DNA of 33,998 nucleotides from Bacteroidota bacterium (GTDB lineage Bacteria > Bacteroidota > Bacteroidia > UKL13-3): positions 1-33,998 of the forward strand of contig JAIXSO010000006.1 in the NCBI GenBank assembly GCA_027484685.1. The letters are read 5' to 3'. Shown piece by piece: positions 1 to 8,769 of this stretch; the stretch's first letter is position 1; each line of letters begins with the position of its first letter. Under the pieces are notes generated by a model. The model saw nothing but the letters and a program-made list of their open reading frames with translations, was not told where the DNA came from and did not search any database. The position numbers and the translations under genes are program-made.

Positions 1-1995
1 AACAAGTTATTAGATATTAGAAAACGTGCTTTAAAAGGCGAAAACTTTGATTCGTTAGCAAGCAAATATTCAGAAGATCCATCAGCTAAAAAAATGGGTG
101 CTAAATTAGGTTGGTACACGGTATTCCAAATGGTATATCCTTTCGAAAACCAATCGTACAAAACAGCTAAAGGCGATATTTCAATGCCTTTCCGCACACA
201 ATTTGGTTACCATATTTTAAAAGTTAACGATAAACGCCCAGCTAGAGGCGAAGTTAAATTGGCTCATATCATGATTAGAACTCCTTACGATGCTGATCCT
301 GAACAAATTCAAGATGCACAAAATAAAGTTGTTTCAATTTATGCTCAAATAAATAATGGTGAAAGCTTTGGGACTTTAGCTAAAAAATATAGCCAAGATG
401 CAACCAGTGAAAACAATGGTGAAATGAGTTGGATTGCTAGTTTAAGTGGTTATCCTGATGAATTTAAAGATATTGCGTTTAGCTTAACTAAAGATGAAGT
501 TTCAAAACCATTTAAAACCAACTTTGGTTTCCATATCATTAAATTAATTGACAAACGTACCATTGAAAATTTTGAAGAGGTTAAAGAAATTATAAATAAA
601 AAAATTGAAAAAGATAGTATTAGGAGTAATTATTCAAATAGATTTTCTCTGAAACAAGATATTCAATCTAAAGTAGAGCAGTTGGTAAATGAATGGCAAC
701 AGAAAGGGAAATATGAAAAAACAGCAGATTACTTAGCAAGGGTGAATGAAGCAACAAGAAATGAAAAAATTAAAGAGGCGCAGCGCTTAGTAATTACCTC
801 TTTAGGCCAAAATGTTTTCAATAAGAATAGAGATTTTGTATTAGGCGATTATGATGCAGATAACGAAAGTTATTTAATAAAAAGCCAGCTTTTTGGCAAT
901 ATGCTTATAAAAGTGCCTATAAATAAAGCCCAATCCTTTGAAAAAGATTGGGATAATGTGCGCCTTTTAAACCCTCAGTTTAGTTTTAATGGTGAGCAAA
1001 TCGTAATTACAAAAATGGTATTTGCCCATAATGCTGATAGTTATTTATTTGATATTAGTAAAGAAGTGAAGTTTAATAATTTAAATATACAATACAATTT
1101 TAGTAAAGTAGAGTTGGAGCCAATTGCCAATCTAAATAAAGCATCAAATAATGCTGACCAAAAACAACTTATGGTAGGAAAATCAGATATAGATTTAAAC
1201 ATACCAACCACGTCAATAATTAATAATAATGGCATAGCAGTAATAATAGGTAATAGTAATTATAGTAAAACAGCTAAAGTAGATTTTGCATTGAACGATG
1301 CCAGGTTAATGAAAGAGTATTTAATAAAAACGTTAGGTTATAAAGAGGGTAATATATTATATTATGAGAATATAGGGTTAGATGAATTTAATACCATATT
1401 TGGAACAAAAGGAAATGCGCGCGGTCGTTTATCCAATATAGTAAAACAAGGTATTTCAGATGTATTTATTTACTATGTAGGCCATGGTGCACCAGGAATT
1501 AATGATGGAAAAGGGTACTTTGTACCAGTAGGTTGCGACCCTAATTATGTAGAAAACGGAGGTTATCAACTAGATGTGTTTTATGAGAACCTATCTCAGA
1601 TAAAAGCCAAAAGCATTACAGTAGTAACTGATGCTTGTTTTAGTGGAGCTGATATATTTAAAAATATAAGTCCAATAGGAATAAAGATGAAAGATCCTGT
1701 AGCAAAAGTGTCCAACATATCAGTATTTAGCTCTTCAAGTGGAACAGAAGTAAGCAGTTGGTATAACGAAAAGGGACATGGTATGTTTACCTATTTCTTT
1801 TTAAAAGCCATCCAAGATAAAGTACATAGTGATAAAAATAAAGATGGAGTATTAACTTATCAAGAGGTATATGAATATCTTTCAGATAATAATGAGGGTG
1901 TTCCATATTATGCAAGAAGTATTCATAATGTACAGCAAAATCCAACACTAGAAGGAGATAGAAACGATCAAGTTTTTATTAAATTTGATAAATAA
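1..1995 (+). CDS. Parvulin-type prolyl isomerase fused to caspase-like (C14) peptidase, 5' end outside window
   Basis: The reading frame is open from base 1, so the gene begins upstream; the first Met in the window (base 94) lies inside a parvulin domain. Residues are numbered from that Met. Residues 1-50 are the end of one PpiC/parvulin domain and about 53-160 a second (GEMSWI, FGFHIIKLIDKR), as in SurA-like periplasmic folding factors. From about 185 to 370 is a linker domain (VNEWQQKGKYEKT) that I associate with Bacteroidota caspase proteins. Residues about 380-630 are the C14 fold with a complete dyad: His464 in YYVGHGAPG and Cys515 in TDACFSG. An EF-hand-like loop with DxNxDG spacing follows at 580-591, suggesting calcium binding. 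Isoleucine codon use changes sharply near base 650 (see findings). It overlaps the next gene in TAATG. The domain calls are firm; the role of the fusion is unknown. Confidence 0.88.
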   Translation, partial: NKLLDIRKRALKGENFDSLASKYSEDPSAKKMGAKLGWYTVFQMVYPFENQSYKTAKGDISMPFRTQFGYHILKVNDKRPARGEVKLAHIMIRTPYDADPEQIQDAQNKVVSIYAQINNGESFGTLAKKYSQDATSENNGEMSWIASLSGYPDEFKDIAFSLTKDEVSKPFKTNFGFHIIKLIDKRTIENFEEVKEIINKKIEKDSIRSNYSNRFSLKQDIQSKVEQLVNEWQQKGKYEKTADYLARVNEATRNEKIKEAQRLVITSLGQNVFNKNRDFVLGDYDADNESYLIKSQLFGNMLIKVPINKAQSFEKDWDNVRLLNPQFSFNGEQIVITKMVFAHNADSYLFDISKEVKFNNLNIQYNFSKVELEPIANLNKASNNADQKQLMVGKSDIDLNIPTTSIINNNGIAVIIGNSNYSKTAKVDFALNDARLMKEYLIKTLGYKEGNILYYENIGLDEFNTIFGTKGNARGRLSNIVKQGISDVFIYYVGHGAPGINDGKGYFVPVGCDPNYVENGGYQLDVFYENLSQIKAKSITVVTDACFSGADIFKNISPIGIKMKDPVAKVSNISVFSSSSGTEVSSWYNEKGHGMFTYFFLKAIQDKVHSDKNKDGVLTYQEVYEYLSDNNEGVPYYARSIHNVQQNPTLEGDRNDQVFIKFDK

Positions 1996-2762
1996 TGAAA
2001 AGAGGAATTGTAATACTAATATGCATTTTACCTATTGCTAGTTTTGCTCAGGAAATTGTAAAAGTTAATGGTGTAAAAGGAAAATATTATTTATCAAATG
2101 ATATTAGTCCAAAACAAGCCAAAGAACTAGCTGTTTTAGAAGCAAAAACTGAAGCGTTAAGGGTAGCCGGAGTTGGAGAAACTGTCAATTCAAGTAAGGT
2201 TTTAATTACTACAGAAAGCAATCAAAAAGTAGAGCAACTTTTCAATAACATAGCCACTATTGAACTTAATGGTGCGGTAACCAATTATAAAATAGATACG
2301 ATATTAGAGAAAAAGAACGAGTTTAATCAAACCTATTTTGAAGCAATAATAAATGCAGAAGTAATTAAGTATAAAACTAAACCTGATCCGGCATTTTACT
2401 TGCAAATTGAAGGAATAGATAAAGTTTACAAAAAAGGAAGTGAACTTAAATTTGATTGTATTCCTTATATGAATGGTTACTTAAAAATTTTTCAAATAAC
2501 TAATAGTTATGCTGGTATGGTATATCCTAATGACTTTGAAAAATCGAATTTGATACTAAAAGATCAAAAATTGCAATTTCCAATAAAAAAGGGGTTGTCC
2601 TACACGCTTGATGATAGAGAAAGTAATACATTGGTTTTTGTATTTACTAAAAAGGAAATACCTTTTGTCGGTAAGCAAACCACCGAATCTATTACCGAAT
2701 GGATTTATAAAATAGCCCCTGACGAAAGACATGTTCAAACATTTTCCTTTGTAGTAAATTAA
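1995..2762 (+). CDS. Secreted DUF4384-type protein, partner of the caspase-like gene
   Basis: 255 residues with a signal peptide (about 1-18, ending ASFAQ). Residues 20-125 resemble the LPP20/FlgT-type fold: they open with an alpha-rich stretch (KQAKELAVLEAKTEALRVAG) and continue in beta strands. Residues about 130-255 match the DUF4384 pattern, with KFDCIPYMNGYLKIFQI followed by YPNDFEKSN. DUF4384 is often encoded beside or within C14 peptidase proteins, which fits the neighbour. The ATG overlaps the stop of the upstream gene by one base, so the two are probably translationally coupled. Function is unknown; a periplasmic or outer-membrane-associated partner of the peptidase is an inference. 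Confidence 0.75.
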   Translation: MKRGIVILICILPIASFAQEIVKVNGVKGKYYLSNDISPKQAKELAVLEAKTEALRVAGVGETVNSSKVLITTESNQKVEQLFNNIATIELNGAVTNYKIDTILEKKNEFNQTYFEAIINAEVIKYKTKPDPAFYLQIEGIDKVYKKGSELKFDCIPYMNGYLKIFQITNSYAGMVYPNDFEKSNLILKDQKLQFPIKKGLSYTLDDRESNTLVFVFTKKEIPFVGKQTTESITEWIYKIAPDERHVQTFSFVVN

Positions 2763-2853: not shown

Positions 2854-2904
2854 AACTTAAACAGTGTAATGAATCTTTTAAGGGAAACATAATCAATAAT
2901 TATT

Positions 2905-2912
2905 TATATTTG
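2905..2912 (+). promoter_or_regulatory. Candidate -7 box for the DUF433/DUF5615 operon
   Basis: TATATTTG matches the Bacteroidota -7 consensus TAnnTTTG and ends only 4 bases before the ATG at 2917, which would give a leaderless or near-leaderless mRNA. No good -33 TTG is seen at the expected distance, so confidence is low. Confidence 0.35.
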
Positions 2913-2916
2913 ACTT

Positions 2917-3126
2917 ATGAAATTTCAGGATTATATTGAATCAAATCACACCATTATGTTAGGAAAACCTGTAATTAAAGGAACTAGAATTACAGTTGAA
3001 TTGATTTTGAAAAAACTATCAGAAGGAGCTTCAACTAAGCAAATTATTGAAATGTATCCAAGCTTGAACAATGAACAAATAAATGCTTGTTTGGCTTATG
3101 CTTCTGATGTAATTTCAAACGAATAA
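2917..3126 (+). CDS. DUF433 family antitoxin (VapB45-like)
   Basis: 69 residues, the full length of the DUF433 family. The family signature is clear: a start ending in HTIMLGKPVIKGTRITVE, then ILKKLSEGASTKQIIEMYP and a C-terminal helix with LAYASD. DUF433 proteins are small winged-helix-like DNA-binding antitoxins, usually followed by a PIN-like DUF5615 toxin, and that is the arrangement here with a 14-base gap. It is expected to neutralise the toxin and repress its own operon. No strong operator palindrome is visible. The pair sits directly after a REP-like element. Confidence 0.9.
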   Translation: MKFQDYIESNHTIMLGKPVIKGTRITVELILKKLSEGASTKQIIEMYPSLNNEQINACLAYASDVISNE

Positions 3127-3140
3127 CTTTTAGAATAGTA

Positions 3141-3497
3141 ATGTTAATTATCGCGGATGAAAATATTCCAAGAAGTATCATCGAATCATTACGTTTGCTT
3201 GAGGTAGAGGTAATTTATATTTATGATCAATTTCGGGGTATAGATGATTTTAGCATTATTAATCTAGCAAAACAAAAGACCAACGCTATAATTTTAACCG
3301 AAGATAAAGATTTTGGAGAATGGATTTTTTCTCATCATGTGGCAGGAATAAGTGTAATATTTTTGCGGTATCATTTTTCTGAATTATCTGAAATAACATC
3401 GGTTTTAATTAAGCTAATTTCAGAAAAACAAAACAATCTTTTAAATAAGTTTACAACGGTTACACCAACAAAAATTAGAACTAGGGATTTGTTCTAG
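3141..3497 (+). CDS. DUF5615 PIN-like toxin (VapC45/Mut7-C type)
   Basis: 118 residues, normal for DUF5615. The acidic residues of the PIN-like nuclease site are present: Asp6-Glu7-Asn8 in ADENIP, Asp36, and Asp55/Asp57 in TEDKDFGEW. The family is proposed to cut RNA and to be held inactive by the DUF433 partner just upstream. The C-terminal tail (FTTVTPTKIRTRDLF) is typical. The gene appears intact. The RNA target cannot be inferred. Confidence 0.88.
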   Translation: MLIIADENIPRSIIESLRLLEVEVIYIYDQFRGIDDFSIINLAKQKTNAIILTEDKDFGEWIFSHHVAGISVIFLRYHFSELSEITSVLIKLISEKQNNLLNKFTTVTPTKIRTRDLF

Positions 3498-3544
3498 TTA
3501 TTTACTTTTTAACTTTATTTATTATACCTTAGAACTACAAAACA

Positions 3545-4042
3545 ATGGAAATTGAAATAAAAACTAGCAAATGGTATTTGTTTTTTATGCTAATATTTAT
3601 GGTTTGGGCACTGGCAATGCCAATACTTTTTACCATGTACACAAATTTTGATAGACCCGCAATGTATGCGCTTTTTGCTTTAGTATTATTATTTTGTTTA
3701 TGGATTATACTGTTTTTTACAACAACATTTTTATTGCTTCCTTTGGCAGTTTTTATAAATGAAGAGAATAATAATATTACGCTTCATTATTTTAAAAAAA
3801 GATTCATTACTTTACAATTAGAGAACATAATTAGTTACAGTTTAGTTCAAATTTATGCACGTAGATCAACTAAATATGGTATTTTATTACATTTAGATTC
3901 TGGTAAAAATTTACTGGTGAGTGATTTTAATTTTAAAAGCTACACTCCAATGTTGTTTTATTTAAACAGAGAACAAGTTAAAAAAGAAGATGAATTAATA
4001 GATTTTAGTTGGATAAAATATTTTAGAAACTGTTTGCATTAA
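3545..4042 (+). CDS. Small membrane protein of unknown function
   Basis: 165 residues. Two hydrophobic segments (about 11-32 and 39-78, the second long enough for one or two passes) are followed by a soluble beta-rich domain of about 85 residues (ITLHYFKKRFITLQLENIISYSL, then GILLHLDSGKNLLVSDFNF). Two N-terminal membrane segments followed by a small beta domain recall bacterial PH-like membrane proteins (YcxB/bPH type), but this is shape only. It starts 47 bases after the toxin gene and may be co-transcribed. No signal peptide or catalytic motif is recognised. Confidence 0.7.
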   Translation: MEIEIKTSKWYLFFMLIFMVWALAMPILFTMYTNFDRPAMYALFALVLLFCLWIILFFTTTFLLLPLAVFINEENNNITLHYFKKRFITLQLENIISYSLVQIYARRSTKYGILLHLDSGKNLLVSDFNFKSYTPMLFYLNREQVKKEDELIDFSWIKYFRNCLH

Positions 4043-4063: not shown

Positions 4064-4135
4064 GCTCTCGCAAGTGTTAATTACGCAAAGCGTAATTCAC
4101 TTGTGAGGCTAAATAATTAAAGTTTGCAACTTTAA
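4064..4135 (+). repeat. REP-like palindromic element 2 (forward, 3' flank of RAYT)
   Basis: Same architecture as element 1: CTCGCAAGTG pairs with CACTTGTGAG around the inner stem ATTACGC-aaa-GCGTAAT, followed by AAAGTTTGCAACTTT. It ends one base before the transposase stop codon (4137). It is inverted relative to element 3 on the other side of the transposase. Confidence 0.87.
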
Positions 4136-4136
4136 T

Positions 4137-4685
4137 CTAAATCATTATCAAATCAAGTAAACCTTTACCACCTGCATAATCTATTGCACTGCTGTATTTC
4201 CAATGCCAAGGTTCTTCTACCAAGCCCATTGCTACTGGATTATTATGTATATAAGTGAGTTTTTGTTGAATAACTTCATTACTCCAAAGTTCAATAGGTC
4301 TGTTATCCTGCTGCCAAAATTGAAAGTCTTTATTATTAGTATTGTAATTACCTGCGTTCTTAAAAATGGCTAACATCCATTCTCTTCTCGATTCTTGTTC
4401 ATTATCTGCAATAGCCTCAATTATCTTTTTGCTTGTAAACTTTTTCATATCGCGTAATATGTTCGACATTAAAAAACCTTCTCTGGCACTACCAATAAAA
4501 TGCAAATGATTGGTCATTAAACACCATGCATTTAAATCTAAACCTTTGTTAGTTTGGCAAAACTGCATGCTTTCTAATAAAATACTTTTGTACATTGGTC
4601 TTGTAAAAACATCAATCCAACCAATGGTAGCAAAGGTTACAAAATACAATCCATCGGGGTTATGAAATTTATAAGCGCGGCTCAT
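4137..4685 (-). CDS. REP-associated tyrosine transposase (RAYT, Y1_Tnp/IS200-like)
   Basis: 182 residues, normal for a RAYT. The start YKFHNPDGLYFVTFAT is family-typical. The HUH metal-binding pair is His60 and His62 (MTNHLHFI), and the catalytic Tyr145 lies in LTYIHNNPVAMGLV, followed by the family C-terminus WHWKYSSAIDYAGG. RAYTs are single-stranded DNA transposases thought to mobilise REP palindromes; here REP-like elements lie directly 3' (4064-4135) and 5' (4706-4763) in inverted orientation. Nothing is truncated, so it may be active. The first ten codons are also present in a second, out-of-frame copy in the tandem duplication immediately upstream. Confidence 0.93.
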   Translation of the reverse strand: MSRAYKFHNPDGLYFVTFATIGWIDVFTRPMYKSILLESMQFCQTNKGLDLNAWCLMTNHLHFIGSAREGFLMSNILRDMKKFTSKKIIEAIADNEQESRREWMLAIFKNAGNYNTNNKDFQFWQQDNRPIELWSNEVIQQKLTYIHNNPVAMGLVEEPWHWKYSSAIDYAGGKGLLDLIMI

Positions 4686-4705
4686 TTTTTTTGGGTTTTT
4701 ATTAT

Positions 4706-4763
4706 AGCAAAGTTACAAACTTTGCTTACTTATTCCCACAAGTGTGTAACACTTGCGGGAGCG
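4706..4763 (-). repeat. REP-like palindromic element 3 (reverse, short loop)
   Basis: On the minus strand: CTCCCGCAAGTG, a short TTACA loop, CACTTGTGGG, then the companion palindrome AAAGTTTGTAACTTT. The inner stem present in elements 1 and 2 is missing, so this is a short variant. It lies in the leader of the transposase gene. Confidence 0.85.
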
Positions 4764-4816
4764 GGGCGGGGTTATGAAATTTATAAGCAAGGCTCATTTT
4801 TTTTGGTTTTTATTAT

Positions 4817-4873
4817 AGCAAAGTTACAAACTTTGCTTACTTATTCCCATAAGTGTATAACACTTGCGGGAGC
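4817..4873 (-). repeat. REP-like palindromic element 4 (reverse, short loop)
   Basis: Second copy of element 3, produced by the 112-bp tandem duplication, with two substitutions in the hairpin. Confidence 0.85.
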
Positions 4874-4981
4874 GGTGCTAAGCATTTATAATATTCAGAA
4901 TTTGAGAAATAACCGCTACATCTTTTATTTCTGTTATTCCTCATCATTTATTACTATTGCATTCGCTTATTAAAATTGCAA

Positions 4982-7752: not shown

Positions 7753-7824
7753 GCAAAGTTATAAACTTTACTAACTTATTCCCACAAGTGACTCCCGCTA
7801 CGCGTGATTAACACTTGTGGGAGC
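7753..7824 (-). repeat. REP-like palindromic element 5 (reverse)
   Basis: On the minus strand: CTCCCACAAGTG, inner region with CGC-gta-GCG, CACTTGTGGG, then the companion AAAGTTTATAACTTT. Full-length form. It lies between the convergent MORN and universal-stress genes. Confidence 0.85.
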
Positions 7825-7864
7825 TAGGGGGTATTAAAGCCCAATATTACTTTATTATTATTAC

Positions 7865-7913
7865 TTATTCCCACAAGTGACTTAAGCTTCGCGTAATTAA
7901 CACTTGTGGGAGC
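7865..7913 (-). repeat. REP-like palindromic element 6 (reverse, companion palindrome lost)
   Basis: CCCACAAGTG and CACTTGTGGG form a 10-bp stem around an 18-20 base interior related to element 1. The AAAGTT companion palindrome is not recognisable. Only 40 bases separate it from element 5, in the same orientation. Confidence 0.8.
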
Positions 7914-7938
7914 ATAAGGGTATTTTTATTGTAGTAAT

Positions 7939-8769
7939 TTACTTCGAATAAATTAAAACAGGCACTTTTGTAGAATAGGTTAATTCAGCAGACTTACTTG
8001 GAAGAAACATACTTTCAAAAAATCCTTTTTCCCTATTAGTAAACATAATTAATAGCTCTGGTTTCGATTTTTTAACATATTTACTTACTCTTTCGACAAG
8101 TGATAGTTCCATGTTATTCTTTTGAATATTTAATTTAAAGTTTTGGAACTCTTCTTTTTCAAATAGCTCCTTACTTTTTTCAAATTTCTTTTTATCAAGC
8201 GCAAAGGATGAATAGTGTAATACTTCTAAATTCATAGAAACCTCAGAAGTAAGTTTTGAAATTTTTGTTATTTCTTTTTTTAAATTTTCAAAATCTGACA
8301 AATAGGTTGCATTTTTAATGGCTTTGGCTCTATAATGACTTGGTATTACCATAACCGGTACTTTAGAATTATTAACAATATACGATGTATGAGTGCCCAT
8401 TACCTTTCTCAACATGCCAGCTCCTTGAGTTGCCATACAAATAAAATCTATTTTGTTTTTTTCAGCGTAACTAATTATATCTTTTTCAGTAGATATACTA
8501 TTTTCTACTACAAATTTTATATCTATAAAATTCCCTTTTTTATTACCAATTGTGCCATGAATAAATTTTTTAAGTTCAATTGTTAAACGTTCAATTTCTT
8601 CATTTTTATACGATAAAAAAAACATGTCACTCCATCTGGTGGGTTTAATTATATGTATTGCATGAAAAAAAATTACTTCAATCTGCTTATTTTGTTTTGC
8701 TATAGTTTGAGCAAATCTTATTGCACCTTTTGAGTTTGCCGAAAAATCCGTTGTTACTAGTAGTTTCAT
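7939..8769 (-). CDS. Tandem universal stress protein (UspA family)
   Basis: 276 residues from the ATG at 8769; an upstream TTG at 8820 would only add an unlikely 17-residue leader. Two Usp domains are joined. The first (about 1-140) starts MKLLVTTDFSANSKGAIRFA and ends with the nucleotide-loop-like GTHTSYIVNNSKVPVMVIP. The second (about 150-276) is degenerate, ending SAELTYSTKVPVLIYSK without a clear G-2x-G-9x-G motif. Tandem Usp proteins are cytoplasmic, ATP-binding or regulatory, and are induced on growth arrest or oxygen limitation. A candidate -7 box and a 12-base dyad lie about 80-100 bases upstream. Confidence 0.88.
   Translation of the reverse strand: MKLLVTTDFSANSKGAIRFAQTIAKQNKQIEVIFFHAIHIIKPTRWSDMFFLSYKNEEIERLTIELKKFIHGTIGNKKGNFIDIKFVVENSISTEKDIISYAEKNKIDFICMATQGAGMLRKVMGTHTSYIVNNSKVPVMVIPSHYRAKAIKNATYLSDFENLKKEITKISKLTSEVSMNLEVLHYSSFALDKKKFEKSKELFEKEEFQNFKLNIQKNNMELSLVERVSKYVKKSKPELLIMFTNREKGFFESMFLPSKSAELTYSTKVPVLIYSK

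Follow-up and report, generated by a model that had tools for sequence, protein, structure and literature searches.

A caspase-like protein with a tandem parvulin unit resembling the resident peptidyl-prolyl isomerase in a Bacteroidota genome

The window, by which we mean the whole 33,998-nucleotide stretch analysed, is contig C33 from its first base (G000:C33:1) of a Bacteroidota genome in 72 contigs, and it opens within a gene which, as rebuilt, encodes a signal-like start, two parvulin domains, a conserved linker domain and a caspase, in that order (736 aa). The parvulin unit resembles the middle of an intact peptidyl-prolyl isomerase encoded in the same genome. The reading we prefer, held with about even confidence, is that the product is a probably exported caspase protease in which a tandem SurA/PrsA-like parvulin unit replaces an N-terminal binding module and brings the protease to unfolded clients. 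The locus presents a new protein architecture, in which, on our reading, the captured domain was at a later time overwritten in part by the resident housekeeping gene. The features of the locus, by position in the window, are as follows.

1..1995, + strand: parvulin-linker-caspase gene, codons 73-736 and stop; 5' remainder on contig C57
1..618, + strand: window portion of the resident-isomerase copy, ending at donor residue 371 (BLASTP)
1..240, + strand: parvulin domain 1; residues 7-77 match PrsA-type parvulins; 5' part on C57
250..564, + strand: parvulin domain 2 (PF00639, residues 89-184)
643..1080, + strand: conserved linker domain, about 145 aa (alignment of 14 sequences; model pLDDT 93.4)
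1081..1179, + strand: low-confidence, probably flexible spacer (pLDDT <50, residues 147-179 of the 450-aa model)
1213..1992, + strand: caspase-like peptidase domain, Peptidase C14 (PF00656 and structure match)
1831..1866, + strand: EF-hand-like loop DKNKDGVLTYQE, below the Pfam cut-off (E 0.046, 13.7 bits vs. 25.4)
1995..2762, + strand: DUF4384 partner gene (PF14326, 1.6e-06), with a one-base overlap with the caspase stop codon
1..2875, + strand: window portion of the two-gene cassette, missing in the related genome G036, where its flanks abut; about 3128 bp including the C57 part

The frame at 1-1995 matches PF13616 (4e-44) and PF00639 (4.2e-43), in two stretches each, as well as the caspase domain PF00656 (4.7e-13, residues 411-650; 49.8 bits vs. 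a cut-off of 21.4), which agrees with the single open frame of parvulins, linker and caspase described in an earlier note on this DNA. The His464 and Cys515 named there are encoded at bases 1483-1485 and 1636-1638, numbered from an ATG at base 94, and neither residue varies among the 42 chosen rows that were aligned. That ATG is not the start of the gene, however, since the frame is open at its 5' end, the gene begins outside the window and its first 72 codons, for the signal-like start and the beginning of parvulin 1, lie on C57 (L009 from base 8168). The start itself, MHRLLKPFFLLLLTSCSLNINAQ, has the look of a signal peptide, and Cys16 may belong to a lipobox (motifs read by eye); the export suggested in the earlier note appears plausible.

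The model of the linker-caspase half (450 aa) has a mean pLDDT of 84.2, and its caspase part matches Arabidopsis metacaspase 4 (VIA-align Z 23.7, rmsd 2.5, 217 residues) and also the paracaspase MALT1. With the predicted caspase fold and the His-Cys dyad, the protein is a Peptidase C14 caspase homologue, and its proteolysis is putative. The linker is marked by the motif W-x-x-K ... YDxD-x-E and precedes signal-bearing caspases. The window's copy matched no Pfam family at E<=0.1, and the model of the linker alone (pLDDT 93.4) found no convincing match in the PDB (Foldseek best E 0.27; VIA best Z 5.0 over 60 residues), a result that does not establish a new fold for the predicted structure.

Contigs C33 and C3 start with 119 identical bases, C43 (reversed) and C57 end with 119 identical bases, and a 113-base overlap occurs in all four pairings of these contigs. 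The break at the start of C33 looks like a halt of the assembler at an exact 125-bp repeat common to two genes, and each of the four arms around the repeat has differences of its own. By gene order, C43 and C3 are contiguous in the relatives G036, G040 and G044, and together they give an intact peptidyl-prolyl isomerase gene of 664 aa. C57 was joined to C33 because their flanks abut in G036, where the C57 flank (L009 4622-8130) directly adjoins the counterpart of window positions 2876-3642 (L067 5814/5815) and the cassette is absent; this join yields the fusion gene of 736 codons. As reconstructed from sequence, the pairing of C57 with C33 and of C43 with C3 rests on gene order in relatives. 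Near bases 600-700, where the earlier note had considered a frameshift or misassembly, the frame is open inside the contig, and the contig end is a repeat-induced break away from 550-700.

The linker-caspase half was matched in 6 of the 64 genomes of the family (E<=1e-60) and in 3 of 395 genomes of the class (E limit 1e-75), the genome itself being counted in both; among the 10 genomes of the genus it is common, at the stringent E limit, only to G040. The G040 caspase is 94% identical over residues 356-664, where the G040 contig ends. That genome has the same aminopeptidase neighbour and beside it, at a contig end, a gene whose beginning encodes WD40 repeats and a signal-like stretch; the caspase, the DUF4384 gene and the downstream genes of the window lie on a different contig. 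Judging by gene order, the WD40 start and the caspase in G040 are likely to be one WD40-linker-caspase gene; in genome G029 such a gene lies on a single contig. G036 and G044 have no cassette at the fusion locus, although their aminopeptidase is closer (99% vs. 92% for G040). A different caspase gene, 34% identical, is present in G044. In G036 a match to the caspase domain contains four in-frame stops and may represent a decayed gene (L163, C45:88930-89286).

Loci of relatives were taken as the best 80 of at least 408 from a scan of genome contigs, and the linker also aligns in 13 of these 80. N-terminal to it lie WD40 repeats in five of the 13 (L078, L080, L081, L083, L091), TPR in one (L116), sequence with no Pfam match or merely a weak SH3 hit in three (L086, L114, L121) and almost nothing in four (L082, L085, L095, L101). 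L109 was not counted as a linker locus because a CARDB match covers the stretch aligned from query residue 15. A WD40 propeller, as recognised from sequence, is the commonest identified N-terminal module of the linker-caspase family, and in three more homologues of the class a propeller precedes the linker, recognised in two cases only from weak Pfam hits and by eye. Among the 25 commonest of the 107 families listed for the best 80 loci, CARDB occurs in 20 loci, WD40 in 6 and TPR_14 in 6. BLASTP with the fusion's parvulins (E<=1e-3) gave no match within the caspase frames at the 80 loci, nine of these frames being cut at the 5' end, including those in G040 and G030:C11, where a contig end cuts the gene before its N-terminal part. 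The complete fusion occurs in 1 of the 64 family genomes, its own; as to the earlier note's question of the same fusion in distant lineages, no other genome had it complete, with the genes in G040 and G030:C11 cut as stated. A resident source for the N-terminal part of L086 was sought in its own genome (1 of 1), and only the protein itself matched. Inspection by eye next to the fusion start revealed no trace of WD40 repeats, and other WD40 proteins are present in the fusion's genome.

Two further loci deserve mention in their own right. In another Bacteroidia genome, a separate parvulin gene of 776 aa lies on the opposite strand near a caspase gene (L117 7638-9965), which may be chance, and in G050 one TAG codon interrupts a caspase homologue between its His and Cys parts (L044 3298-5580).

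ORFs similar to the DUF4384 partner were found in 25 of the 80 caspase loci (phmmer E<=0.01, flanks compared; the weakest hits are marginal), and excerpts of two publications record DUF4384 in orthocaspase proteins (PMC6426788, PMC7475262). Further along the window, intergenic repeats at 2783-2863, 4064-4144, 4655-4878 and 7753-7924 have related cores, e.g. GCAAGTG and CACTTGTG; the same repeats occur at this locus in G036, G040 and G044, and gene content varies among the four genomes. Positions 2876-3642 hold a DUF5615 PIN-like gene, preceded in G036 by a small gene that we take to be DUF433-like, the two perhaps forming a toxin-antitoxin pair.

The isoleucine codon counts of the earlier note proved exact, with 13 ATT, 2 ATC and 2 ATA in bases 94-660 and 13, 2 and 21 in bases 661-1992, and ATA, GTA and GAG do rise (Fisher p 0.0024, 0.016 and 0.027; segments chosen post hoc, values uncorrected). 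The break falls at the join of the domains, as had been claimed, but the join itself lies at about 618-643 rather than 661, because similarity to the donor stops near base 618. ATA accounts for 0.11 of isoleucine codons in the parvulin part, 0.09 in the isomerase gene and 0.58 in the linker-caspase part; in the DUF4384 gene it is 13 of 26. The linker-caspase share exceeds that of all 38 ORFs compared from the same genome (0.09-0.52), these being frames between stop codons, 250 aa or longer, from both strands of six stretches, among them the fusion frame (0.43) and a 256-aa window frame that by its length is the DUF4384 gene (0.52). GC3 is equal in both halves of the fusion frame (0.21). The codon break is real and, as a compositional signal, compatible with two gene histories in one frame; alone it says neither when nor whence the caspase arrived.

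Fusion residues 38-278 align with isomerase residues 130-371 (209 of 242 identical, 86%; BLASTP), and the copy contains both parvulin domains whole. The similarity is abrupt at its left edge and fades at its right, and bases 1-119 of the window, within the 125-bp exact repeat, are identical to the donor gene. The analysis supports the view that a parvulin unit of SurA/PrsA type was joined in frame to a caspase gene with an origin of its own. A housekeeping gene that lost its 3' end, as had been suggested for the parvulin half, was rejected: the isomerase gene, rebuilt from C43 and C3, is intact at 664 aa, three relatives share its gene order, and what the fusion contains is a copy of the gene's middle.

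The two parts of the copy differ in age. Of the third codon positions compared between fusion and isomerase, 9 of 140 differ in the 5' part, as against 37 of 101 on the 3' side, a contrast reached in none of 10,000 shuffles. No comparable break was seen between the isomerase and five relatives (1315, 1415, 1929, 111 and 1913 of 2000 shuffles equal to or above the observed value), G037 coming nearest to one with 111. Between fusion and isomerase dS is 0.12 in the 5' part and 0.92 in the 3' part, as against 0.81 (left part) and 1.09 (right part) between the isomerase and G036. We read the 5' part, from this pattern, as lately homogenised by gene conversion with the resident isomerase. The recent fusion of the earlier note did not hold, because the 3' part is old: its dS of 0.92 is near the values between the isomerase and four other species of the genus in the same part (0.98-2.57, the larger ones near saturation), and recency applies only to the 5' part. 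The dN/dS of about 0.16 for the 3' part vs. the isomerase, and of about 0.04 for the caspase part vs. G040, indicates purifying selection on both.

It is rather unlikely, though compatible with any functional reading, that the fusion was formed with the parvulin unit of another species, arrived by horizontal transfer and had its 5' part overwritten afterwards by the resident gene. The third-codon break would suit such a mixed history, as would the linker-caspase ATA share above all 38 ORFs; the 3' part also has a lower dS to G036 (0.74) and G040 (0.78) than to the isomerase of its own genome, and placing the fusion next to G036+G044, to G040 or to G037 gave 3' trees that were not rejected (p-AU 0.21, 0.12 and 0.09). 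Yet in raw identity the 3' part is nearest to its own isomerase, both in residues (74 of 101, vs. at most 66 in 12 other species) and in bases (0.795, the highest among 13 compared), trees of 14 sequences place the fusion beside its own isomerase with split support of 99 (5' part) and 75-79 (3' part), and the genes next to the caspase cassette are the same in G040. Taken as sequence evidence, the whole copy, including its 3' part, likely came from this genome's own isomerase gene.

Parvulin chaperones bind unfolded or proline-rich protein segments. In the preferred reading, the fusion protein would be located in the periplasm or as a lipoprotein, and its parvulins, by analogy, would bind such segments in envelope proteins, acting as the recognition part of an exported protease, like the modules whose place they take. 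Misfolded envelope proteins would be their likeliest ligand because the source is a chaperone-type isomerase. The linker may then transmit binding or clustering to the caspase, which would cut the bound protein or a partner, while the DUF4384 protein could be substrate, anchor or regulator. Overall, this might serve quality control in the envelope or, when folding stress is severe, lead the cell to destroy itself.

The parvulins might also have no job of their own, having entered a tolerant caspase gene by a chance insertion. The complete fusion occurs in a single genome, and the protein change in the 3' part (25 of 91 residues vs. its own isomerase) exceeds that between the isomerase and G036 (15 of 92), both as expected of a passenger; but the frame has stayed open, dN/dS is about 0.16 even in the oldest part and both parvulin domains are whole, which makes this origin unlikely. 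Less probable still is an intramolecular switch, in which a linker or caspase proline would be the target of the parvulins and its isomerisation would set when the enzyme folds or becomes active. Parvulin 1 hardly differs from the resident isomerase, the residues that are catalytic in parvulins included, and the spacer before the caspase is predicted to be flexible, but relatives manage without parvulins.

We also regard as decidedly improbable an integrated decoy, in which the caspase bears the chaperone copy as bait or sensor, a toxin or phage factor touching the copy fires the protease, and the bait stays matched to its target through gene conversion with the chaperone's own gene. Chaperone domains in a caspase gene, a 5' part near-identical to the real protein and the patchy occurrence within the genus are in its favour, as is the weak match of the fusion to the PADLOC 'caspase' model (1.3e-05; the partner, the other of the two proteins scanned, had none). 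No attacker is known, however, the nine other window proteins scanned contained no known defence set, gene conversion occurs without selection too, and parvulin 2 has diverged from the resident protein. An assembly artefact, with two genes wrongly joined at the repeat, is suggested by the four contig ends within it and their 113-bp overlaps, but can practically be discounted, as the parvulin-caspase join (bases 550-700) lies inside the contig and distant from the 125-bp repeat, both pairings agree with the gene order of relatives and each of the four arms has its own differences.

To our knowledge, bacterial caspase homologues are widespread and their triggers mostly unknown. If recognition is indeed the role of the parvulins, experiments can address directly what the caspase senses, as the recognition domain has a known kind of ligand and a resident version in the genome. 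Integrated decoys exist in plant and animal immune receptors, and the fusion is like them in that a copy of a normal cell protein is joined to a death or alarm effector; it differs in that there is no evidence of an attacker. A literature search of open-licence PubMed Central (titles and abstract starts) found no parvulin-caspase protein. According to excerpts of a survey of 671 prokaryotic caspase homologues, these carry 71 Pfam domain types, with WD40, TPR and Sel1 the commonest, and the words 'isomerase' and 'rotamase' are absent from its main text (PMC3501461). As far as these excerpts go, the fusion is like the homologues with WD40 or TPR in its His-Cys dyad, caspase fold and accessory binding domain, and its signal-like start has a parallel in the signal peptide that some of them possess, whereas its accessory part consists of parvulin domains (PMC3501461).

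With periplasmic isomerases of the SurA/PrsA/PpiD type the fusion has two parvulin domains in common, at 86% identity to the resident protein; in contrast to that protein, it lacks the N-terminal 129 and the C-terminal 293 residues and ends in a protease. The same linker and caspase are found in the propeller-linker-caspase proteins of L078 (Bacteroidetes) and of L080 and L081 (Marinimicrobia), the last of which also shares a DUF4384-like neighbour with the fusion. Compared with this group, the fusion has the linker before the caspase and a tandem parvulin unit where the propeller stands.
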